Shown here piece by piece: positions 10,029 to 39,535 of a DNA stretch of 39,615 nucleotides. Position 1 is the stretch's first letter. Every line of letters starts with the position of its first letter. The notes under the pieces are model-generated. The model was not told where the DNA came from and did no database searches. It saw nothing but the letters and a program-made list of their open reading frames with translations. Made by a program: the position numbers and the translations under genes. Source of the DNA: an uncultured Eubacteriales bacterium (GTDB taxonomy: Bacteria; Bacillota; Clostridia; Peptostreptococcales; Anaerovoracaceae); assembly GCA_902774265.1 (NCBI GenBank), contig CACYHR010000016.1, forward strand, positions 1 to 39,615. Reading direction: 5' to 3'.

Positions 10029-10589
10029 ATGCACGCAGCAGATCTTGATGAAAACTTAATAATACTCATGGCTCAGGGTGATGGCGATGCGTTCACTGAA
10101 TTCTATAATCAGACAGCCAGCATAGTATACGGATTTGCGCTCTCGATTTTACGAAACAAACAGGATGCTGAAGACGTTATGCACGATGCATTCATCAAGG
10201 CGTATACGAGTGCTGTCACCTACAGACCGATGGGTAAGCCGATTGCCTGGCTGCTCACGATAGTAAAGAATCTGTGCTATAACCGGATCAGATCAGGCAG
10301 GATCTTTGAAGACATAGACGACTATCAGGATGCTGCCGTAAGCGAAACACAGGATCAGGATACGGTAACAGACAGAGCTGTACTGCAGCAGGCGCTGAAG
10401 ATACTCGATGCAGATGAACGACAGATCGTTACACTGTATTCGGTGAGCGGACTGAAACACCGCGAGATAGCGGAGATCATGGAAATGCCGATGGGTACGG
10501 TGCTTTCAAAGTACAACAGGGCATTGGCTAAGATGAGAAAGGAACTTACCGGTGATGGAGACAGAAACAGAAAGGGGGTAAAGAAATGA
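10029..10589 (+). CDS. ECF-type RNA polymerase sigma factor
   Basis: A 186-residue sigma-70 family regulator of the extracytoplasmic function class. Region 2 spans about 10-85 (FTEFYNQTASIVYGFALSILRNKQDAEDVMHDAFIKAY, then the -10-contacting helix ending PIAWLLTIVKNLCYNRIR). A variable acidic linker follows, then region 4 at about 125-175 with a helix-turn-helix (SGLKHREIAEIMEMPMGTVLSKYNRALAKMRKEL). There is no region 3. The stop overlaps the next start by four bases (ATGA), and that gene encodes a membrane protein of anti-sigma type, so the pair should form a signal-responsive switch. The ribosome site is weak (AAGG directly before ATG). Its targets are unknown; the neighbouring secreted protein is one possibility, by proximity only. 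Confidence 0.9.
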   Translation: MHAADLDENLIILMAQGDGDAFTEFYNQTASIVYGFALSILRNKQDAEDVMHDAFIKAYTSAVTYRPMGKPIAWLLTIVKNLCYNRIRSGRIFEDIDDYQDAAVSETQDQDTVTDRAVLQQALKILDADERQIVTLYSVSGLKHREIAEIMEMPMGTVLSKYNRALAKMRKELTGDGDRNRKGVKK

Positions 10590-12091
10590 CTTACAACAGA
10601 GATGAGATCAATGAAGAAATCATTATGAAATCTCTGGCGAATGCCATTCAGGATTCCACCCCTGATATACTTCAAAGTCTCCGCGCCGAACTCAATATAG
10701 AAAGCAGGTCAGCAGATACTCCGGTCATGACTGTATCTGAAACAGACAGAGCAGATGCATACAGACCTGTAAAGGCTAAAGCCGATACATCACAGAGACA
10801 GAAAGCAAGGGTAAGATCAACTGCATATAAGGTTGCAAGCTGTGCAGCAGCGCTGATCGTAATCTTCGGCGGAGTCTCACTGGTCAACAGGACCGGGCCT
10901 GCGTTTGCGGTAGTCGGACTCGATGTCAATCCGGGCATTGAGCTTACTATAGATAAGAATGAAAAAGTTATTTCTGCAGTGGCGGTCAATGAAGATGGAC
11001 AACATATCCTTTCGGATTTGAGAATCGAGAAACGCAATGTCAATTCAGCGTGCGACGAAGTAGTCGAGGCGATGATGGACGAGGGCTATCTCACCGACAC
11101 ATCCAATTCCGTTCTGCTTTCAGTCAGGGCTGATGATCCTGACAAGGGCAGGGAGATCGAAAGAGAGATCTCGGATAACCTCAACGGGTTCCTCGAGGAT
11201 TCCGAAATCTCACCGGCCATATTCGGCCAGTACGTCGAAGCGGACGACGAACTCGATAAATTTGCAGGAACCCACGGTATCTCGATAGGCAAGGCGTGGC
11301 TGATACGCAAGCTCTCGGATGAAGAGGATTTGAGCGGAACGGCTGATTCATTGCTTGGACTGACAACGCAGGAACTTGTCCTACTCGGCCAGGACAGGGC
11401 GTTGAGTACAGGAACATCTTACGGAACCCCGAATACCAGTAAGTATGTCGGTACAGACGGCGCTTTGATAGCGGCTCTTGAGGCGGCAGGACTGAGCAAA
11501 GAAGAAGCTGAGAACGTTAAAGTCAACTTCAGCTGTGAGAACGGATCGATCGTATATTCAGTCGGTTTCGATGCGAATAGCTGCATTTACGGATTCAATG
11601 TTGATGCACTCACCGGGATGGTGATGTTACATGACAGCGTGATCCCGGGTGTATCAGCCGAATCGCCTGCTGGAATAGCAGATGCCATAAATGATCTGAT
11701 CAGCAATGAGCACAGTCTTTCTCAGAACAAGGCTGATCAGAACACATCCGGAGCATCAGGAAACACTGATTCCGGATCCGGTAATACCGGTAACAGCGGT
11801 ACGGGCAGTGATCCAGGAAAGATCGCAGGCGATGCTGAAGATATCACCGATACAGATCCTGACGATAAGCCGGGAGATATAAGCGGAGATACAGAAGATA
11901 TAGAAGACATTGACGATGCTGATGAGGATAAGGAATGTACGCTTCCTGATAACAGCGACAAAGCGGAAGGCAGCAGTTCTGATAAGAATGACGGAATCAG
12001 CAGCGATTCAGATAAGGAAGACAGTAATAAAGAAAAAACAAATAAAGAAAGCGAAGATAAGGATAAGGAAAAAGCAAGCGATAATAATTAG
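10586..12091 (+). CDS. RsgI-type transmembrane anti-sigma factor with PepSY-like and acidic tail regions
   Basis: A 501-residue single-pass membrane protein. Residues 1-78 are cytoplasmic and would hold the ECF factor encoded upstream. Residues about 80-100 form the membrane helix. Residues 107-240 match the RsgI-family extracellular domain: GLDVNPGIELTIDKNEKVISA, in which the Asn115-Pro116 bond corresponds to the self-cleavage site described for clostridial RsgI proteins, followed by the usual lysine/acid-rich alpha-beta part. Residues about 290-350 resemble a PepSY module (ALIAALEAAGLSKEEAENVKVNF). From about 375 to the end the chain is low-complexity, first Gly/Ser/Thr-rich and then Asp/Glu/Lys-rich, and probably reaches into the cell wall. 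No carbohydrate-binding module is seen at the end, unlike cellulosome RsgI proteins. The ATGA overlap makes translation coupled with the sigma gene. Confidence 0.82.
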   Translation: MTYNRDEINEEIIMKSLANAIQDSTPDILQSLRAELNIESRSADTPVMTVSETDRADAYRPVKAKADTSQRQKARVRSTAYKVASCAAALIVIFGGVSLVNRTGPAFAVVGLDVNPGIELTIDKNEKVISAVAVNEDGQHILSDLRIEKRNVNSACDEVVEAMMDEGYLTDTSNSVLLSVRADDPDKGREIEREISDNLNGFLEDSEISPAIFGQYVEADDELDKFAGTHGISIGKAWLIRKLSDEEDLSGTADSLLGLTTQELVLLGQDRALSTGTSYGTPNTSKYVGTDGALIAALEAAGLSKEEAENVKVNFSCENGSIVYSVGFDANSCIYGFNVDALTGMVMLHDSVIPGVSAESPAGIADAINDLISNEHSLSQNKADQNTSGASGNTDSGSGNTGNSGTGSDPGKIAGDAEDITDTDPDDKPGDISGDTEDIEDIDDADEDKECTLPDNSDKAEGSSSDKNDGISSDSDKEDSNKEKTNKESEDKDKEKASDNN

Positions 12092-12992: not shown

Positions 12993-13024
12993 ATGTTTTA
13001 GAGAATTAAGAAGAGGAGATGAAA

Positions 13025-14176
13025 ATGGAACTTATCAAGGATCTGCCTGCGGTATTTGATGATTTTGCAGAAGCAAGAAGAAATGCATTCGTTAATGTCA
13101 AGAAAGTAAAGGATCAGGGAATTCCTGTCATCGGTGCGTACTGTACATATTTTCCTGTAGAGATCGCACTGGCAGCAGGAGCTGCTCAGGTAGGACTCTG
13201 CTCGACATCAGGAGAGACTATTCCTGCCGCAGAGAAAGATCTTCCGGCAAATCTCTGTCCTTTGATCAAATCCAGCTACGGGTTTGCAAAAGAGGATAAG
13301 TGCCCGTTCTTCTATTTCAGCGACATAGTAGTAGGCGAAAACACCTGTGACGGAAAGAAAAAGATGTATGAGCTGATGAGTGATTTCAAAGATGTTTTCG
13401 TGATGGATCTGCCTAATTCACAGAGCGAAAACGGACTTGCTCTTTACAAGGCTGAGTGCCTCCGTCTTAAAAAATACATCGAAGAAAAATTCGGTATCAC
13501 GATCACAGATGATGATCTTCGCAAAGCCGTAAAGATCGAAAATGAGATCAGGGTAGCAAAAAAACATCTTATAGATACAATGAAGACCGATCCGTGTCCT
13601 GTTTCAGGTCTGGATATGTTCAAAGTCCTCTACGGAAGCGGATTCAAATTTGACCGTACAGGTATCGCGGCAGAAATGTATGCTGTTGCCGACAAGATCG
13701 AAAAGGAATACGCAGAAGGCAAGAATGTCGGCAAAAAACCTCGTATAGTAATAACCGGATGCCCTATCGGAGGCGTAACCGAAAAAGTAATTGCAGCAGT
13801 AGAGGATAACGGCGGAGTCGTAGTTGCAATGGAGAACTGCGTAGGAGCCAAGCAGTATGACAGACTTGTGGATGAAGATGCCGAAGACATCTGGGGCGCA
13901 CTCGCAGAGAGATATCTCAACATCGGCTGCTCTGTAATGACACCGAATCCTAACCGCTATGACCTGCTCGGAAGAACGATCGATGAGTATAAGGCAGACG
14001 GCGTACTCGAGATGACACTCCAGGCATGCCATACCTACAATGTTGAACACAAATCCATCGAGAGATTCTGCACAGAACAGAAGAACACACCATACTTCAT
14101 GGTAGAAACAGACTACTCGACAGCAGATGTAGCGCAGCTGAATACAAGAATAGCTGCATTTATCGAGATGCTGTAA
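13025..14176 (+). CDS. Double-cubane-cluster-type reductase (2-hydroxyacyl-CoA dehydratase D-component family, YjiM-like)
   Basis: A 383-residue cytoplasmic member of the HgdB/HgdC-like dehydratase superfamily, closest in length and motifs to the double-cubane cluster proteins (E. coli YjiM type), which carry an iron-sulfur cluster and do low-potential reductions of small substrates. I use ATG 13025 because AGAGGAG abuts the alternative ATG 13019 with no spacing. Likely cluster cysteines: GAYCTYFPVE near 40, NLCPLIKS near 79, KCPFFYFSDIVVGENTCDGKK near 97-112, then TGCPIGG near 246 and ENCVGAK near 270. The usual partner, an ATPase activator of the YjiL/HgdC type, is not adjacent. Expression is tied to the PrdA-like gene upstream. 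The substrate is unknown. Confidence 0.82.
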   Translation: MELIKDLPAVFDDFAEARRNAFVNVKKVKDQGIPVIGAYCTYFPVEIALAAGAAQVGLCSTSGETIPAAEKDLPANLCPLIKSSYGFAKEDKCPFFYFSDIVVGENTCDGKKKMYELMSDFKDVFVMDLPNSQSENGLALYKAECLRLKKYIEEKFGITITDDDLRKAVKIENEIRVAKKHLIDTMKTDPCPVSGLDMFKVLYGSGFKFDRTGIAAEMYAVADKIEKEYAEGKNVGKKPRIVITGCPIGGVTEKVIAAVEDNGGVVVAMENCVGAKQYDRLVDEDAEDIWGALAERYLNIGCSVMTPNPNRYDLLGRTIDEYKADGVLEMTLQACHTYNVEHKSIERFCTEQKNTPYFMVETDYSTADVAQLNTRIAAFIEML

Positions 14177-14328: not shown

Positions 14329-14371
14329 TTGAGCATCGACGTTTGCTGTGATAAACTAAGTATGCTGTAAT
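14329..14371 (+). promoter_or_regulatory. Probable promoter of the B12 locus
   Basis: TTGAGC (14329-14334) with TAAACT (14352-14357) at 17-base spacing, the latter preceded by TGTGA. An alternative is TTTGCT (14342-14347) with TGTAAT (14366-14371) at 18. Either places the start just before the riboswitch. Confidence 0.4.
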
Positions 14372-14379
14372 AGCAGCGC

Positions 14380-14584
14380 ATATCCGGTGCCGTGTCATTA
14401 TCTGATAATGGCAGGGGTAAAAGGGAAACAGGTGAAAATCCTGTACGATCGCGTCACTGTGACAGAGGAGCTGCAGCCAGCTGAGTCACTGCGGGATGCA
14501 TCCATGACGGTCGCAAACCATGGATGTATGCTGCGGGAAGACGGCTGCCGCATTGATACTGGAGCCAGGAAACCTGCCGGATAT
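14380..14584 (+). ncRNA. Cobalamin (adenosylcobalamin) riboswitch aptamer
   Basis: P1 is formed by ATATCCGG (14380-14387) and CCGGATAT (14577-14584), a perfect eight-base match. Inside are the class hallmarks: GGGAAACAGGTGAAAATCC near 14420, a CACTGTGA segment near 14455, AGTCACTGCGGGA near 14483, and the B12-box-like GAGCCAGGAAACCTGCC near 14562. Binding of adenosylcobalamin should favour the terminator downstream and lower expression of the whole locus. Confidence 0.93.
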
Positions 14585-14660
14585 AAGGGTGCAGGCTTAG
14601 GGACTAGCCGGGCCACGCGGGATTGGCCGTACCTTGAACAGCGATTATGTTGTTTTATGG

Positions 14661-14692
14661 TGCCTTTGTTCCGCCCGGAATGAGGCATTTTT
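14661..14692 (+). terminator. Riboswitch-controlled terminator
   Basis: TGCCTTTGTTCC pairs with GGAATGAGGCA around GCCC, followed by five T. It lies between the aptamer and the cbiK ribosome site, the expected position of the expression platform. The intervening 75 bases (14585-14660) would hold the antiterminator. Confidence 0.8.
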
Positions 14693-14730
14693 ATTCCGTA
14701 ATCATTCAGTATGAAAAGGAGCGTAACACG

Positions 14731-15717
14731 ATGAAAAGGAAATTATTGGTGCTGCTTCTGGGACTCTCAATGATCATGATGTTTGCATTTGCGACCGGAT
14801 GCAGCAAGCAGGAAAGTGAGCCTGAAGAAGCCGAAACAGAAGAAGCTGCAGAAGCAGAAGATGATGAAAATTATGACACAGGAGATGCATCGTTGGATAA
14901 CCCGAGAAACCAGGACGAAATAGGTGAAAACGAATTACTGGTCGTCAGCTTTGGTACCAGCTTTAATGACAGCCGCCGTCTCACTATAGGAGCGGTAGAG
15001 CAGGCTATCGAGGATGCTGTAGGAGATGACTGGAGCGTTCGCCGCGGATTTACCGCACAGATCATTATTGATCACATTATGAAGAGAGATAATGTAAAGA
15101 TCGATAATGTAAAAGAGGCTCTTGACAGAGCAGTTGACAACGGAGTAAAGACACTTGTAGTTCAGCCGACTCATCTTATGAACGGTATTGAATACGATGA
15201 GCTCAAGGAAAGTCTTGCCGGTTACGCAGATTCCTTCGAAAAGGTCGCTGTCGGCGATCCGCTGCTTACATCGGATGAAGATTTCAGCAGAGTCGCTGAT
15301 GCTATGATAGATGTCACCAAGGATTATGATGACGGTGAGACCGCTATCGTATTCATGGGACACGGTACAGAGGCTGAGTCCAATGCGATTTATGAAAAAA
15401 TGCAGGGCGTAATGAAAGATAAGGGAATGGACAACTACTATATAGGAACAGTAGAGGCCAGTCCTTCTCTTGAAGATGTTCTTGCAGAGGTAGGCAAAGG
15501 AGAATACAAGAGAGTCATCCTGAGACCTATGATGGTAGTTGCAGGTGATCATGCCAATAATGATATGGCTGATCCTGAGGATCCTGAATCGTGGTATTCG
15601 CAGTTCAAGGCTGCCGGATATGACGTGGAATGCGTTCTTGAGGGTCTCGGACAGGTACCTGCGGTACAGAAGATCTATGCAGAGCATGCGCAGGCTGCCA
15701 TCGATTCACTCAAATAG
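14731..15717 (+). CDS. cbiK: CbiK-type sirohydrochlorin cobaltochelatase, lipoprotein form
   Basis: First gene behind the riboswitch. CbiK inserts Co2+ into sirohydrochlorin in the early-cobalt B12 pathway. The 328-residue product, however, opens with a lipoprotein signal (MKRKLLVLLLGLSMIMMFAFATGC, lipid-carrying Cys24) and a 40-residue acidic linker before the chelatase fold. The N-terminal half has the family's SFGTSFNDSRRLTIGAVE; metal-site histidines lie in PTHLMNG (His148), MGHGTEAES (His211) and AGDHANND (His274). So the enzyme should sit outside the membrane. A periplasmic CbiK that binds haem is known in Desulfovibrio. Here it precedes an ABC uptake system, which suggests a role in handling tetrapyrrole or cobalt at the surface. 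ATG 14731 is chosen for its AAAAGGAG site and the signal peptide; upstream ATGs fall in the terminator. Confidence 0.9.
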   Translation: MKRKLLVLLLGLSMIMMFAFATGCSKQESEPEEAETEEAAEAEDDENYDTGDASLDNPRNQDEIGENELLVVSFGTSFNDSRRLTIGAVEQAIEDAVGDDWSVRRGFTAQIIIDHIMKRDNVKIDNVKEALDRAVDNGVKTLVVQPTHLMNGIEYDELKESLAGYADSFEKVAVGDPLLTSDEDFSRVADAMIDVTKDYDDGETAIVFMGHGTEAESNAIYEKMQGVMKDKGMDNYYIGTVEASPSLEDVLAEVGKGEYKRVILRPMMVVAGDHANNDMADPEDPESWYSQFKAAGYDVECVLEGLGQVPAVQKIYAEHAQAAIDSLK

Positions 15718-15786: not shown

Positions 15787-16680
15787 ATGAGTATAAAAAG
15801 AAAAAGGCCGGCGGTGCTGCTGCTGACTCTCATCATGCTGCTTACCCTCGCGGCCTGCGGCGGAAACGGAGACAGCAGCGAAAAGCAGGACTCTCAGGGT
15901 GATTCTTCTCAGGTAGCCTCGTCAGAGGAGATGACTGATATCGAAGATGTAGGCTATGAGGGCATGATGCCGGTAACAGCAGATCAGCTGAACAACGGTA
16001 CATATGATATAAATGTCGATTCCAGCTCTTCAATGTTCAATATCGAGGAATGCAGCCTCACAGTTGCTGATGGAAAGATGTCCGCGGTCATGACTATGGG
16101 CGGAACAGGTTACAGATATATCGTGATGAAATCAGCCGAAGAAGCTGCAGCATCAGACGAAAAAGAATATATCTATCCTGAGGAGGATAAGGAGGGACGG
16201 CATACCTTCACTGTGGATGTTGAGTCTCTGGATAAGGCTGTCAAATGTGCCGCCTTCAGTGACAAAAAAGAAAAATGGTATGACAGGACTCTGGTGTTCA
16301 GCGCGTCATCCCTTCCTCTGAGTGCGTTCAAAGAGGGCGTTCTCACTACACCTGCTGTGCTCGGTATAAAAGACGGAGAGTATAAGGCGGAGGTAAGTCT
16401 GTCAGGCGGCAGCGGAAGGGCGGAAGTCGATTCGCCGGCGGTCATCAGGCAGTCGGGAGATAGCTGCATAGCCGTGATCAGATGGAGCAGTCCGCACTAC
16501 GACTACATGATAGTGGATGGTGAAAAGTATCTGCCGGTCAATGAAGAGGGTAATTCGGAATTCGAGATACCGGTGCTTTTCTTTGACAGACCGATGCCTG
16601 TAATCGCAGATACGACTGCTATGAGCGAGCCGCATGAGATAGAATACACTCTTCTTTTCGACTCTAAGTCAATGAAATAG
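15787..16680 (+). CDS. Lipoprotein with two tandem copies of a beta-rich domain, putative metal- or haem-handling surface protein
   Basis: 297 residues with a lipoprotein signal (lipobox LTLAAC, Cys24) and a Ser/Asp/Glu linker. Two related modules follow: about 64-172 (NGTYDINVDSSSSMFNIEECSLTVADGKMSAVMTMGGTGYRYIVM ... HTFTVDVESLDKAVKCAAFS) and about 193-297 (DGEYKAEVSLSGGSGRAEVDSPAVI ... IAVIRWSSPHYDYMIVDGEKYL ... FEIPVLFFDRPMPVIADTTAMSEPHEIEYTLLF). The pattern is like domains often annotated next to clostridial iron or haem transporters and is reminiscent of, but not the same as, NEAT domains; I cannot name it with certainty. A Tyr pair in each module could be a ligand. RBS AAGGAAG is close to ATG. 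It sits between cbiK and the ABC binding protein, so it probably passes cargo to the transporter. Confidence 0.72.
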   Translation: MSIKRKRPAVLLLTLIMLLTLAACGGNGDSSEKQDSQGDSSQVASSEEMTDIEDVGYEGMMPVTADQLNNGTYDINVDSSSSMFNIEECSLTVADGKMSAVMTMGGTGYRYIVMKSAEEAAASDEKEYIYPEEDKEGRHTFTVDVESLDKAVKCAAFSDKKEKWYDRTLVFSASSLPLSAFKEGVLTTPAVLGIKDGEYKAEVSLSGGSGRAEVDSPAVIRQSGDSCIAVIRWSSPHYDYMIVDGEKYLPVNEEGNSEFEIPVLFFDRPMPVIADTTAMSEPHEIEYTLLFDSKSMK

Positions 16681-34934: not shown

Positions 34935-36308
34935 ATGAAGAAAGATAATGCTGCGGCGGCAAATGAGGGTAAGGCAGCCGCTCTTGCGGAGGAAGTGCTG
35001 GATATGACGAGAAACAGGCTGCTTGTCAGCCTGCGTTTTCTTGATGTGGCACTCAATATGCAGAGCCGTAGGATTTACGGCAGCAGTATCGCGGCAGACG
35101 GCAGCAGCATTTATTATTCGCCTCTTTATATACTCAGAACATACAGGGATTCGCCCGAAGAACTTACAAGGGAGTATCTTCATGTCGTACTGCATTCGGT
35201 TTTCATGCATCCGTATCTCGGCGGAAGACAGGACCGGCAGAAATGGGATCTTGCGTGCGATATCGCTGTAGAGGCGGCAATAAACGATCTCGGTCTCGCA
35301 TGTGTGAGGAGCAGCCGCGGAGAACGGCAGACCGCTGTTCTGAAAAAGATGAAGAGGGAGATAAGGCCGCTGACGGCCGTGAGGATTTATCGGGAACTGG
35401 TTTCGGGAAATATATCGCAGAATATATCGCAGAAGAAAACAGATGAACTGATAAGCATTTTTTCTCCGGACGATCACAGTGTCTGGTATGAAGGCGACAG
35501 CAGCGAATTATCAGGAAACACGAGAGCTTCTCAGCTGACAGGCGTAAACACGGATGATAATACCATTGATCCGGATAAGTGGAAGGATATCGCAAGGCGC
35601 ATAGATATGGAACTTGAAATGTTCGCAAAAGTACGGGGCGCCGCAGCGGGGACTCTTGTACAGAATATCAGAGATGTCGTCCGTGAACGATGTGATTATG
35701 CTGATTTTCTGAGGAAATTTGCCGCGTTCGGCGAGGAGATCCGGCCTTCGGAAGATGAATTCGATTATATATATTACACATACGGGCTGTCGCATTACGG
35801 CAATATGCCTCTGATAGAGCCTGTAGAGTACCGTGAGGATCACAGGATCAGGGATTTTGTGATCGCGGTGGATACATCGGGATCCGTTGCGGGTGATGAG
35901 GTTCAGACCTTTATCAGCAGGACCTGCAGCATACTTAAGCAGCAGGATTCTTTTTTCAGAGAGATAAACATACATATCGTGCAGTGTGATTCCGAAATAC
36001 AGAGTGATTATGTCATCAGAAAGACTGCAGATATCGACAGATATCTTGAGGAGATGGAAATAAAGGGTCTGGGCGGTACGGATTTCAGACCTGTATTTGA
36101 TTATGTGAACGGTCTTATCAATGCCGGTGCGTTCAGCGACCTGAAGGGACTGATATATTTCACTGACGGCCTCGGCATTTTTCCTGAAACAAAGCCTCCT
36201 TACAGGACTGCCTTTGTGTTTGCCGATGACGGCAGCAGCCATCCGAAGGTACCGGCATGGGCGATAAGGGCAGTTATAGACCGTGATGAACTCAGAGAGG
36301 ACAGATAA
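34935..36308 (+). CDS. VWA-like protein with degenerate metallopeptidase-like N-domain (DUF2201-type)
   Basis: 457 residues. The N-terminal half resembles the putative metallopeptidase region of DUF2201 proteins: REYLHVVLHSVFMHP at 79-93 followed by WDLACDIAVEAAINDLGL. Where such proteins often read HEVLH, this has REYLH (Arg79), so peptidase activity is doubtful. The C-terminal part (about 305-455) is a von Willebrand A fold with a full metal-ion-dependent adhesion site: DTSGS near 313, GGTDF near 380 and TDG near 410. Such VWA proteins act with MoxR-type AAA+ ATPases, and the next gene is exactly that, with overlapping TAATG. The pair is laid out like the ATPase and VWA subunits of Mg- or Co-chelatases, but no large chelatase subunit is present. 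Role in B12 metabolism is inference from position. Confidence 0.85.
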   Translation: MKKDNAAAANEGKAAALAEEVLDMTRNRLLVSLRFLDVALNMQSRRIYGSSIAADGSSIYYSPLYILRTYRDSPEELTREYLHVVLHSVFMHPYLGGRQDRQKWDLACDIAVEAAINDLGLACVRSSRGERQTAVLKKMKREIRPLTAVRIYRELVSGNISQNISQKKTDELISIFSPDDHSVWYEGDSSELSGNTRASQLTGVNTDDNTIDPDKWKDIARRIDMELEMFAKVRGAAAGTLVQNIRDVVRERCDYADFLRKFAAFGEEIRPSEDEFDYIYYTYGLSHYGNMPLIEPVEYREDHRIRDFVIAVDTSGSVAGDEVQTFISRTCSILKQQDSFFREINIHIVQCDSEIQSDYVIRKTADIDRYLEEMEIKGLGGTDFRPVFDYVNGLINAGAFSDLKGLIYFTDGLGIFPETKPPYRTAFVFADDGSSHPKVPAWAIRAVIDRDELREDR

Positions 36309-37858
36309 TGAACATCAGCAAGGCCAAAATACAGATAAAAAATGCGGTCAGAGCATATCTGAGCCGCGATGCAAACGGCGACTATGTGATCCCGACAGAG
36401 AAACAGCGGCCGGTACTGCTGATCGGCCCGCCGGGTATAGGCAAGACTGCGGTAATGGAGCAGATCGCTTCGGAACTCGGAATAGGGATAATGGCGTATT
36501 CCATGACTCACCATACGCGTCAGAGCGCCATAGGACTTCCGTTCATTTCGCACAGAAAATATAACGGTGTCGAATATGATGTTACGGAATATACAATGAG
36601 CGAGATCATCGCGTCGATATACGATCTGATGGAGGAGACCGGAGTCAGAGAGGGCATCCTGTTTCTCGACGAAATCAACTGTGTCTCGGAGACTCTCGCG
36701 CCTCTTATGCTGCAGCTGCTGCAGTACAAGGTCTTCGGGCGGCACAGGATACCTGACGGCTGGATCATAACGGCTGCAGGAAATCCTCCTGAGTACAACG
36801 ATTCCGTACGGGAATTCGATATTGTTACTCTGGACAGGGTGAAGAAGATCGATGTTGAACCTGACTACGAAGCCTGGAAAGGCTATGCGGCCGGTGCTGG
36901 GATTCATCCTGCTGTCACGGCTTTTCTGGATGGCCGCAGGGACAGGTTTTATTCAGTAGAGACCACGGTGTCAGGAAGGAGGATAGTAACGCCGAGAGGC
37001 TGGGAAGACCTTTCCGGTATGCTGAGGCTGTATGAGCAGAACAGCATCGATGCCGACAGGGATCTGATGATACAGTATCTGCAGGATCCGGAGACCGCAT
37101 CGGAATTTGCCGTATATTATGATTTGTACAGAAAATATCAGAGCGAATATCCCGTATCAGACATCCTGAGCGGGAAATACAGCGAAGAGATAAGGCAAAG
37201 GGCAGCGGAAGCCGGATTCGATGAGGTTTATACACTGACGGGACTGCTTCTCGAAAGAGTAAAAGAGGATGTGCGGGACTGTCTTGATGAGCTGCATTCA
37301 GCTGAGAAGCTCAGAGAATATATTCACGAATATAAAAGCAGTGCGGATGATCAGACCAGTCCGTCTGAAAACATGGACCGCATCGCTGCCCGTGTCCGCG
37401 ATGAACTTGCTGCAGCTGCCAAAGCAGGTTCGATAAGCAGAAATGAAAGAGCTGTTATGCGAAAGACCGCGGACATGCTGACTGATCTCGCGATGAAGAT
37501 CTCCCGGGTTTCCGGCTATGATGAATCATTTGATATGATCAGGAATTCATATTCGGAGATCGTAAGGAATATCAATGATGAAGTGTCGGTGTCCCGCGGA
37601 AATATGTCGGGGCTTATAAAATTTGCGGAAGACTGCTGGGGAGACGGAAGGGAAATGCTTCTGATCGTAACGGAACTCACAGCGGACCCGTCGTGCGTGG
37701 ATTTCATATACCGCTTCGGATGCGAAGAATATTTCAGACATAACGAGAGTCTTCTTACGGGTGAGATAAAGAGCAGGATAGATGAGAAGCTGGCGGAGCT
37801 CGAACTGTATACAAATAGTGGCGAAACCGGGACAGATCATACGGGAGGAAGATTTTGA
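36308..37858 (+). CDS. MoxR-type AAA+ ATPase
   Basis: 516 residues. The AAA+ module occupies about 30-300: Walker A GPPGIGKTAV near 39-47, Walker B ILFLDEINCVSETLAPLMLQLLQ near 117-139, sensor 1 GWIITAAGNPPEYND near 155, arginine-finger region FDIVTLDRVKKIDVEPDYEAW. This order (EIN, sensor GNP, DRV) is that of the MoxR/RavA group. Residues 330-516 are a helical acidic tail with coiled-coil character and no recognised domain. Its start overlaps the VWA stop, so the two are made together. Expected to be a hexameric ring that, with the VWA partner, remodels or loads metal or cofactor into a client. It is the last gene of the B12 locus. Confidence 0.9.
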   Translation: MNISKAKIQIKNAVRAYLSRDANGDYVIPTEKQRPVLLIGPPGIGKTAVMEQIASELGIGIMAYSMTHHTRQSAIGLPFISHRKYNGVEYDVTEYTMSEIIASIYDLMEETGVREGILFLDEINCVSETLAPLMLQLLQYKVFGRHRIPDGWIITAAGNPPEYNDSVREFDIVTLDRVKKIDVEPDYEAWKGYAAGAGIHPAVTAFLDGRRDRFYSVETTVSGRRIVTPRGWEDLSGMLRLYEQNSIDADRDLMIQYLQDPETASEFAVYYDLYRKYQSEYPVSDILSGKYSEEIRQRAAEAGFDEVYTLTGLLLERVKEDVRDCLDELHSAEKLREYIHEYKSSADDQTSPSENMDRIAARVRDELAAAAKAGSISRNERAVMRKTADMLTDLAMKISRVSGYDESFDMIRNSYSEIVRNINDEVSVSRGNMSGLIKFAEDCWGDGREMLLIVTELTADPSCVDFIYRFGCEEYFRHNESLLTGEIKSRIDEKLAELELYTNSGETGTDHTGGRF

Positions 37859-38176
37859 GTTCGGGGATCCGGACTGAAAAGACGCCTTGTATGTTGTGTA
37901 AACACGTTGCATAAACAATAATCATATTTAATATGCTGTTAAGTATAACTGAATAAATAGGCTGTTCCTGTGAAATGACACAATAAACATCTGAGATGCT
38001 TGTTGCTTTTATATAATTATAGATTTGTTTAATAATTAACGCAGAAACAGCAGCTTCGAAATAATTTTACATTTAAGCAAAAACAAATTAAACTGGTTAA
38101 CGCTGTGTAAAAATGCAGCTTTTTATTTGTTATGAAATATCAGGTATAAATCAAAGGAAAAGGAGTTATTTCAAAC
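37859..38176 (+). other. AT-rich intergenic region between the B12 locus and the antiporter
   Basis: No gene. Apart from the hairpin listed separately it holds an A/T-rich stretch with several -10-like words (TATAAT near 38012; TTAAAC at 38088-38093 lies 16 bases after TTTACA at 38066-38071) that could serve the antiporter. The ribosome site AAAAGGAG lies about eleven bases before the next ATG. Confidence 0.4.
37981..38012 (+). terminator. Possible terminator of the B12 locus
   Basis: CAATAAACATC (37981-37991) and GATGCTTGTTG (37994-38004) pair imperfectly, with CATC/GATG at the core, followed by CTTTTAT. The loop is only TGA, so stability is modest. Confidence 0.4.
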
Positions 38177-39535
38177 ATGAACAATCAGAAAAAAGGCAAC
38201 GGACTGGCACTGGTACCATTCGCTGTTTTCATTGTCATCTACCTCGGCGCAGGAATCGTACTGCAGTCCAAGGGTGTAGAGATGGCATTCTACCAGTTCC
38301 CTGCAGTAGTAGCAATGTTTATTGCTGTTCTCGTAGCATTCGCTATGAATTACAAGGCAGGCATCAACGCTAACTTCAGCATCTTTGCAAAGGGCGCAGC
38401 CAACGAAGATGTAATGGCAATGCTCATGATCTACCTGCTCGCAGGAGCTTTCTCTGCAGTAGCAGGCGCTATGGGCGGAGTAGATGCTACGGTCAACATG
38501 GGTGTTTCGATCATACCTTCATCTCTGCTTACAGCAGGACTCTTCGTTATCGCAGCATTCCTCGCTACAGCAACAGGAACATCGATGGGTACGATCGGAG
38601 CTCTCGTTCCTATCGCACTCGGTGTTGTAGACAAGGCCGGACTCAGCCTCCCGCTCGTTATGGCAGCTGTAGTATCCGGAGCTATGTTCGGAGACAACCT
38701 GTCCATGATCTCGGATACGACTATCGCAGCTACAAGGACTCAGAAGGTAGAACTCAAAGATAAGTTCAGAACTAACTTCTGGATCTCGCTTCCTGCAGCA
38801 GTAGTTACTATCCTGCTGCTAGTCATCTTCGGCAGGCCTGATACAGCACAGGCTCTCACAGTTGAGCCGTTCTCGTTTATTAAGGTAATCCCTTATCTGC
38901 TCGTACTCATCCTTGCCCTTATTGGCATGAATGTATTCGCAGTACTGACTATCGGTATCTTCTCAGCAGGAATTATCGGAATGGCTTACGGTGACATCAC
39001 ATTCATGGATTTCGCAGTCAAGATCTGGGAAGGTTTCCAGGGCATGATCGAGGTATTCCTCCTGTCCATGTTCTGCGGCGGTATCGCTGAGATGGCTAAG
39101 CACTACGGCGGTCTTGACTGGCTCATTGACAAACTGTCAAAGACTTTCAAAGGCAAGAAATCCGCACAGGTCGGTCTCTCCGCTCTTGCAGCACTGACTG
39201 ACATGGCTACAGCCAACAACACTGTTGCTATCATAGTTGACGGACCTATGGCCCGCGAGATCAGCGAGAAGTACGACATCGACCCTAGAAAGACAGCTTC
39301 CATCCTCGACATGTTCACATGCATCATGCAGGGCATTATCCCTTACGGAGCTCAGTTCCTCGTAGTTGCAAGCATGTGTGAGGGAAGAGTAAGCCCGCTC
39401 GACATCATTCCGAGAAACTGGTATCTCTTCCTCCTTGCAGGATTCGCTATCCTTTCGTACTTCATGCCTTGGTATGAGAAAATCACTCTCAAGGGCAAGT
39501 GGGACTGGAAGAATAACAAAGTAGTAAACGAGTAA
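38177..39535 (+). CDS. NhaC-family Na+/H+ (or organic-solute) antiporter
   Basis: A 452-residue inner-membrane protein with about eleven to twelve hydrophobic helices. Signature segments are GTSMGTIGALVPIALGVVDKAGL near 133-155, GAMFGDNLSMISDTTIAATRTQ near 170-191 (the helix with acidic residues typical of NhaC), and ALTDMATANNTVAIIVDGPMAREI with GIIPYGAQFLVVAS in the second half, a repeat-like echo of the first. The family exchanges Na+ for protons, and some members swap amino acids or organic acids. Codon use is strongly biased like gdhA, so it is probably abundant. It has its own leader and ribosome site and is separate from the B12 genes; the substrate cannot be told from sequence. Confidence 0.9.
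   Translation: MNNQKKGNGLALVPFAVFIVIYLGAGIVLQSKGVEMAFYQFPAVVAMFIAVLVAFAMNYKAGINANFSIFAKGAANEDVMAMLMIYLLAGAFSAVAGAMGGVDATVNMGVSIIPSSLLTAGLFVIAAFLATATGTSMGTIGALVPIALGVVDKAGLSLPLVMAAVVSGAMFGDNLSMISDTTIAATRTQKVELKDKFRTNFWISLPAAVVTILLLVIFGRPDTAQALTVEPFSFIKVIPYLLVLILALIGMNVFAVLTIGIFSAGIIGMAYGDITFMDFAVKIWEGFQGMIEVFLLSMFCGGIAEMAKHYGGLDWLIDKLSKTFKGKKSAQVGLSALAALTDMATANNTVAIIVDGPMAREISEKYDIDPRKTASILDMFTCIMQGIIPYGAQFLVVASMCEGRVSPLDIIPRNWYLFLLAGFAILSYFMPWYEKITLKGKWDWKNNKVVNE

Follow-up and report, generated by a model that had tools for sequence, protein, structure and literature searches.

A MoxR-type AAA+/VWA gene pair of the Anaerovoracaceae and its possible link to corrinoid methyltransferases

AAA+ ATPases with a VWA-domain partner form the chelatase motors BchI/BchD and CobS/CobT, whose context is that of tetrapyrroles, and corrinoid proteins have in RACo an ATP-using partner for their reductive activation. 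Considered here is a pair of genes, for a VWA protein and a MoxR-like AAA+ ATPase, at 34935..37858 on the forward strand of the window, that is, of the entire contig C16 (39,615 bases) from an uncultured Eubacteriales bacterium of the Anaerovoracaceae (genome G000; assembly of 3.26 Mb in 110 contigs, 90.8% complete). A first reading, made from the letters alone (the sequence-only reading), had placed the pair behind cbiA on the same strand, with coordinates that proved exact, and had offered it as a cobalt insertion motor, a corrinoid-loading chaperone or a reactivase of a B12 enzyme. Judging the client from gene order in relatives, we give a probability of about 0.5 to the reading that the pair, with a leucine-rich repeat (LRR) protein, forms a machine acting on a corrinoid methyltransferase complex (Mtx1, CorP and RACo) by loading, remodelling or rescue.

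The nearest described system is NorQ/NorD, likewise a MoxR-type AAA+ protein with a VWA partner, chains of which head the Foldseek matches of the AAA+ model. NorQD drives metal insertion at FeB of nitric oxide reductase (PMC13036017, PMC9976466), NorQ remodelling a linker of NorD and so enabling insertion (PMC13036017) and function requiring carboxylates on the client (PMC9976466). Relative to NorQ/NorD, the pair has a DUF2201_N domain in its VWA protein, about 200 extra, mostly helical residues in its AAA+ protein and an LRR neighbour, and its context is corrinoid whereas that of NorQD is non-haem iron. CbbQ/CbbO, the Rubisco activase, resembles the pair in that the AAA+ model matches CbbQ (6l1q), and its release of the inhibited enzyme (PMC4660213) parallels one model for the pair; the VWA partner, the client and the LRR neighbour set the two apart. 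What separates the pair from the BchI/BchD and CobS/CobT motors is that CobN/BchH is missing from 7/7 genomes searched, and that the cob genes found here are of the anaerobic type, with CbiK.

MoxR-vWA systems with a conserved third protein have also been described, the third component being VMAP, iSTAND, FtsH or a beta-propeller protein (PMC7159879) or else iSTAND2 or TERNS3 (PMC8195603), to judge from the accessible passages. Here the third protein is LRR, a term that occurs in the accessible text of PMC7159879 once, in a reference title; relative to the passages compared, an LRR third component would be new. The MoxR-vWA-beta-propeller family itself is matched below its cut-off (bpMoxR, 22.7 bits against 27), and no RavA/ViaA family stands among the Pfam and NCBIfam matches of the pair at E up to 0.001. 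RACo, which lies in the pair's own cluster in relatives, is an ASKHA/ferredoxin protein whereas the pair is AAA+; should reductive activation be RACo's part, the pair would act at a different step. No paper in the literature searched, most subscription titles being outside its reach, combined corrinoid with MoxR or corrinoid with a VWA domain, and no experiment bearing on the client was found.

Motifs and folds of the pair

34935..36308, forward strand: VWA partner (DUF2201_N plus VWA domain), 457 amino acids; from open reading frame (ORF), Pfam, 40-row alignment A1 and AlphaFold2
36308..37858, forward strand: MoxR-like AAA+ ATPase, 516 amino acids; from ORF, Pfam AAA/AAA_5, AlphaFold2 and Foldseek
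35181..35210, forward strand: His triad H83-x3-H87-x4-H92, zincin-like but for the catalytic Glu, which is absent; invariant in 40/40 rows of A1
35871..36167, forward strand: residues of the metal ion-dependent adhesion site (MIDAS), D313-T-S315-x-S317, T382 and D411; all invariant in 40/40 rows of A1
36425..36673, forward strand: stretch from Walker A (GPPGIGKT, residues 40-47) to Walker B (LFLDE, 118-122), enclosing a two-strand insert (80-93); alignment A2, 39 rows

The two genes overlap by one base, the stop codon TAA occupying 36306-36308 and the ATG 36308-36310 (TAATG, 36306-36310), and because stop and start share a base the translational coupling proposed in the sequence-only reading is plausible. 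Residues 40-47, L118 to E122, N159, R177 and R230 of the AAA+ protein are invariant or almost so in 39 rows, and its ATPase motifs are intact; N159 we take to be sensor 1, with R177 and R230 as presumed arginine finger candidates. The AlphaFold2 model (mean predicted local distance difference test score, pLDDT, 82.7) has strands at 80-85 and 88-93 between helices 69-73 and 97-111, which is consistent with an insert in helix 2, partly at low model confidence (residues 70-79 have pLDDT <50); such an insert in the AAA+ core is a defining trait of MoxR proteins according to PMC7159879. The C-terminal ~200 residues are mostly helical and match no Pfam family. When the model was compared with solved chains by Foldseek, ranks 1-6 were NorQ(D) and CbbQ entries at E ~1e-6, with RFC at rank 7; the first four were NorQ(D) chains (best E 1.1e-6), and CbbQ 6l1q followed at E 2.7e-6. 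Template modelling scores are 0.30-0.33 over the whole model and 0.54-0.62 over the target, because the alignment covers the AAA core alone. By its predicted structure, then, the AAA+ fold is nearest to known MoxR proteins; by sequence, the profile matched mostly solved AAA proteins, via the P-loop region, and besides these a single designed helical bundle.

The VWA partner (AlphaFold2 model, mean pLDDT 82.9) belongs to the DUF2201 family, with PF13203 (DUF2201_N) at 39.8 bits and PF09967 (DUF2201) at 52.5 bits, both over the cut-off; we take this family to be the metallopeptidase-like COG3864. Its MIDAS is complete, since D313, S315, S317, T382 and D411 are all present, the role names of these residues being those we presume for a VWA domain. 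Together with the Walker A and B motifs, the sensor 1 and arginine finger candidates, the insert and the fold, this places the pair in the MoxR AAA+/VWA kind. Solved relatives of the VWA profile were not found by sequence at E up to 1; the best 50 matches listed in a fold search were generic VWA or integrin domains plus a few VWA-containing proteins, Ro60 for instance, with no useful match to the N-domain.

That N-domain had been described as degenerate and metallopeptidase-like, and this stands as far as the missing zincin Glu is concerned: the window protein reads HVVLH, and of the 40 rows only L014, with HEIFH, has Glu after the first His. The three histidines of HxxxHxxxxH are by contrast invariant, as are D109, E113, D179 and H181. 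In the window genome three distantly related paralogues (on C4, C65 and C86) retain HExxH, as HEIMH, HEVMH and HEVMH. The alignment thus points to a conserved state rather than decay, in which the likely catalytic residue is lost and the likely metal ligands are kept. A metallopeptidase was considered and set aside because the Glu is absent from the window protein and nearly all rows; a metal site may persist.

Methyltransferase genes and an LRR protein near the pair in relatives

In close relatives the context of METHYLTRANSFERASE opens with cbiA, a Cys-rich protein, in some a membrane protein, then hemB, hemC, cobA/hemD and cbiL, continues with two ABC (ATP-binding cassette) genes, a secreted protein and sirC, and runs on through VWA, AAA, Mtx1, CorP, RACo, Mtx2, LRR and MtxX (cbiL and the ABC genes named by eye or similarity, the remaining genes by Pfam). 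From VWA to MtxX all genes lie on one strand, with gaps mostly <150 bp (68-444 bp between AAA and Mtx1); in L011 the hem-sirC block is absent from this place and the genes ahead of VWA are cbiA and the one for the Cys-rich protein. The gene immediately after AAA is Mtx1 on 10 contigs of the same VWA clade: L006, L007 (= G280), L010, L011, L015 (= G270), L017 (= G238), L136 (G286), L137 (G169), L141 (G265) and L152 (G277). These represent about 8 clearly distinct lineages, the AAA proteins of L006 and L007 being 98% and those of L011 and L152 94% identical, and the contigs of L008 and L009 stop before the position of Mtx1.

In searches of the Protein Data Bank and Pfam, Mtx1, of the UroD fold, and Mtx2 are nearest to methylcobalamin:CoM methyltransferase (Mtx1 at E 4.5e-16), and CorP to the trimethylamine methyltransferase corrinoid protein (E 7.6e-48). 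RACo matches the Pfam RACo families and also 3zyy (E 1.9e-96), which is listed as an iron-sulfur cluster binding protein and which we take to be RACo. In L007, Mtx1 has an HxC motif and CorP a DxHxxG motif, the former presumably with its usual meaning in such enzymes and the latter presumably a B12 motif. With a methyltransferase, a corrinoid protein bearing the B12 motif and RACo, the context has the make-up of a predicted corrinoid methyltransferase cluster. At L145:8902-9597, in the methyltransferase cluster, a DUF1638 gene is flanked by MtxX and another UroD-like gene.

Among 296 genomes of the family Mtx1 is present (E up to 1e-60) in 11, and 9/11 carry a VWA-AAA pair no more than 8 kb from it on one contig: seven genomes of the window's genus, plus G076 and G218 from two other genera. 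The remaining two are G000, where the genes are split across contigs, and G283. In a fourth genus RACo lies ~60 bp upstream of VWA-AAA-LRR (G032). The VWA homologues linked to Mtx1 or RACo in the three other genera span 36-42% identity to the window protein (G076 42%, G218 36%). In a VWA tree of 103 rows, made by a quick method with support from the Shimodaira-Hasegawa-like approximate likelihood ratio test only, 12 rows including the window form one clade (99), and the three other-genus rows fall with five rows not labelled as corrinoid-linked in another (97); supported branches require at least two changes of the corrinoid label, that is, at least two separate places in the tree. Two long branches, L149 and L166, are unsure in their exact placement, and L008 and L009 carry the label by clade. 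Such recurrence is consistent with a corrinoid-loading chaperone or B12-enzyme reactivase, as the sequence-only reading had suggested.

The wider family offers a candidate for a third component. Following AAA, or lying between it and VWA, there is usually a gene for a BspA-type LRR protein (PF13306 in the three scanned), and the N-termini inspected have no obvious signal peptide, so that these proteins are apparently cytosolic. An LRR profile matched 61/138 ORFs adjoining the pair against 14/998 other ORFs at 80 loci, a comparison that leans in favour of adjacency because most of the 28 LRR proteins behind the profile came from such positions; 6 of the 14 non-adjacent matches are LRR genes within methyltransferase clusters. 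An adjacent LRR gene was found at 57/76 loci with AAA (the match in L014 marginal, at E 5e-06), and 6 of the 19 loci without one are the window's close relatives, in which the LRR gene lies ~5 kb downstream inside the methyltransferase cluster. Four LRR genes stand in a row in L018, and at L022:2648-5386 VWA and BspA-type LRR repeats are fused in one ORF of 912 amino acids.

At their C-termini many of the LRR proteins have the sequence E-(I/M)-x-A-(L/Y/F) in common, together with a tail of the acidic-Phe kind (DPF, DFFxGLxL, DEFEL). The tail pattern, written after the tails had been viewed, occurs in 54/75 LRR matches and 54/804 other ORFs, and conservation at E233 and D255 (numbered as in L007) reaches 90% or more in a 28-row alignment. 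Such an acidic tail could be something that a MIDAS binds. A paralogous VWA-LRR-AAA set of the genus adjoins a different pair of enzymes, a FAD oxidoreductase (by eye similar to CrtI) and a ferredoxin-reductase-like partner with FAD, NAD and 2Fe-2S domains:

L135:7913-14101, L142:2793-8962, L151:3682-9854 and L081:7012-11278: paralogous VWA-LRR-AAA set (VWA alone on the L081 contig)

These enzymes are a second recurrent candidate client, and because the paralogous set has a recurrent partner of its own, one set per client enzyme is suggested.

Cobalamin genes and competing readings

14368..14595, forward strand: cobalamin riboswitch heading the cob genes; Rfam RF00174, 90.4 bits, gathering threshold 31.5
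14647..15717, forward strand: CbiK with signal-peptide-like start and lipobox; Pfam 250.5 bits; the sole CbiK found in the window genome
33331..34842, forward strand: cbiA, cobyrinic acid a,c-diamide synthase, the 5' neighbour of the pair; NCBIfam NF002204, 380 bits, cut-off 254

In the window, the cob genes from the lipoprotein-type cbiK (14647) through cbiA (34842) stand behind one riboswitch, and cbiA ends 92 bp before the VWA start. The pair might accordingly serve B12 synthesis, by aiding SirC or a cob enzyme or by inserting cobalt without a CobN subunit. In the 21 genomes of the genus a pair of this type (VWA identity of 53-64% across the complete protein, or of 69% for G277, which is counted from a fragment of 164 residues where a contig ends) occurs in 8/9 cbiD-positive and 0/12 cbiD-negative genomes, but equally in 8/9 Mtx1-positive and 0/12 Mtx1-negative ones (p = 4.4e-5 each), and since this is one linked gene block in related genomes, neither figure amounts to 21 independent tests. 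Some cbiD-negative genomes have other VWA types, set apart by the tree in G135, G283 and G292 and by identity alone in G214, G246 and G294. At 10 loci, 3 of which repeat another, the pair lies directly 3' of sirC with gaps of -23 to +45 bp, and elsewhere its 5' neighbours are cbiA plus the Cys-rich gene (L011) or cbiA by itself (window). The recurrence with B12 genes whose lack would have refuted the sequence-only reading is thus present within the genus; in the wider VWA family it is missing, as outside the genus cbiD occurs in 28/53 VWA-positive and 91/222 VWA-negative genomes (Fisher p = 0.13), homologues being counted at E up to 0.001 with distant paralogues included.

The case for cobalt insertion had rested on the lack of a CobN-type subunit and on a CbiK that is a surface lipoprotein, and both observations hold. 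CobN/BchH (PF02514) was found in 0/7 genomes by a search that was positive in 5/14 control genomes, so that a class I chelatase is not indicated, and for this 90.8% complete assembly the only CbiK has a signal-like start and a lipobox-like FATGC, both judged by eye. A search of 8 genomes for CbiX (PF01903) returned CbiK genes alone, in the window genome just its one cbiK, so no cytoplasmic form was found there; six relatives carrying the pair, however, have two CbiK each, one of them of 261-287 amino acids without a signal peptide (by eye), and therefore no missing function for the pair to replace. Within the genus, G259 carries on a 118-kb contig a cob locus running from a lipoprotein-type cbiK through cbiA to cbiL and a second cbiK, without any VWA homologue. 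With CobN missing, a signal-less CbiK beside the pair in relatives, the G259 locus and no cbiD association outside the genus, the cobalt chelatase was rejected, and service in B12 synthesis as a whole we regard as unlikely.

Several observations weigh against a methyltransferase client. The window genome keeps the pair next to cbiA, while Mtx1-CorP-RACo-Mtx2-LRR-MtxX lie on C55 (L145) with unrelated genes upstream; hemB, hemC, cobA/hemD, cbiL, ABC, a secreted protein and sirC are together on C38. The genomes that discriminate disagree: G259, with cob genes but neither Mtx1, RACo nor pair, favours the methyltransferases, whereas G283 (86% complete), with Mtx1-CorP-RACo but neither cbiD nor a pair of this type, favours the cob genes. 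On its 5.7-kb contig an ORF of 540 amino acids (L150:4015-5637), transposase-like by eye, occupies the pair's expected place upstream of Mtx1. G292 points weakly the same way, having a partial cluster with LRR and lacking this-type pair, cbiD and any Mtx1 or RACo match. In both, the cob genes, the pair and some of the cluster may have gone unassembled as a single block. RACo, moreover, occurs in 190/388 genomes of the order and the VWA family in 47, so that corrinoid methyltransferases generally manage without this family; the pair is equally near sirC or cbiA on its other flank; and Mtx1, CorP or RACo lie in the flanks (at most 10 kb) of just 6/80 named loci. The link between pair and methyltransferases is therefore a preferred reading and not proof.

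It is also conceivable, if doubtful, that the pair is part of a MoxR-VWA-LRR module, either general-purpose or a passenger, with a client that has nothing to do with B12, its place in the operon reflecting shared expression or history. At the same 80 loci, cob or corrinoid genes are confined to the flanks of close relatives, and the genus paralogues (L081, L135, L142, L151) adjoin the other enzyme pair; yet in four genera divergent VWA proteins are associated with Mtx1 or RACo, which speaks against a passenger, and the distinct recurrent partner of the paralogue suggests client-specific paralogues. Membership of an immunity-like MoxR-vWA conflict system is highly improbable: the three-component architecture resembles the ternary systems of PMC7159879, and there are weak bpMoxR and IetA matches, but the former is under its cut-off (22.7 against 27 bits), the PADLOC IetA matches span only ~residues 9-62 in the P-loop region, the Pfam matches of the proteins scanned (other neighbours were left unscanned) include no effector domain, and the pair is linked to metabolic genes.

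Surrounding genes and proposed mechanism

38102..38119, forward strand: terminator-like hairpin then T-run, between AAA and nhaC; terminator scan, weak
38177..39535, forward strand: NhaC-family transporter; Pfam PF03553; in relatives, within or beside the methyltransferase cluster
13019..14176, forward strand: 2-hydroxyglutaryl-CoA dehydratase D-component (HGD-D) family gene, before the riboswitch; Pfam PF06050

The pair had been called the last two genes of a B12 locus, which is right locally, a weak hairpin following, and not right of the next gene, nhaC, which belongs to the relatives' methyltransferase cluster. Copies of the NhaC-like gene are 90% and 95% identical beyond MtxX in L010 and L011, 91% in L153 and 62% in L148; the contig ends at 39615, 80 bp past it, and the LRR partner and methyltransferase cluster lie outside the window. 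HGD-D copies likewise occur inside relatives' methyltransferase clusters (65% identical in L148, 86% in L153). Because the terminator scan (7 sites, 4.7 expected from shuffling, which makes the hairpin weak) and the promoter scan (11 sites, 10.0 expected) were near shuffled expectation, claims about transcription units rest on gene spacing.

Cobalamin riboswitches lie upstream of the lipoprotein-type cbiK in G286 (L170) and G259 (L147) also; at the cut-off none was found in L007, L011, L145, L148, L149, L166, L136, L141, L146 or L168. In L170 the riboswitch sits between the two cbiK types, of which the window genome retains the lipoprotein form only, and in relatives (L116-L124, L170) the signal-less CbiK is near a homocysteine-methyltransferase-like gene (named by eye), with an exported lipoprotein-type CbiK as well. 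Similar secreted proteins without a Pfam match are encoded at 15787-16680 of the window, beside BtuF/CbiK, and at L007:8728-9402, before SirC, and possibly take part in corrinoid or metal uptake. At 10029-12091 of the window a sigma-70-family factor (region 2 and 4) is followed by an RsgI-like anti-sigma factor, with no relation to the pair.

If the pair does serve the corrinoid methyltransferases, the AAA+ protein would be the motor, the VWA protein a co-chaperone and the LRR protein the third part of the machine. The LRR protein, the MIDAS of the VWA protein or both would grip the client; an AAA+ ring would engage the VWA protein, and ATP hydrolysis would pull or strain the latter and so remodel the client, as happens with other metal or cofactor enzymes through NorQD and CbbQO; the corrinoid cofactor would then be inserted, or a stuck complex freed. 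The analysis shows the family membership of the parts, intact motifs for ATPase and MIDAS, the order of the genes, the recurring LRR neighbour and the nearest folds; ring and complex formation, the adaptor role of the LRR protein, the identity of the client and the step (loading, remodelling or rescue) are in this scheme what we infer. As RACo is already present for reductive activation, the likeliest job would be loading of the CorP cofactor or remodelling of Mtx1-CorP. A bolder version, possible and put forward tentatively, is that of a new three-component system in which cytosolic LRR adaptors dock their acidic-Phe tail on the VWA MIDAS, with one paralogue per enzyme; the pair might then be the first AAA+ machine dedicated to corrinoid methyltransferases, for loading or rescue beside RACo.

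To our knowledge, the way in which corrinoid proteins receive and retain their cofactor is poorly understood apart from a handful of helpers of the G-protein and ASKHA kinds. If the preferred reading is true, an AAA+ machine of their own would represent a new step in the B12 metabolism of anaerobes. The LRR neighbour is, in turn, a candidate client-recognition part for the MoxR-VWA systems of Lachnospiraceae and relatives, and its short tail motif would be open to mutation.

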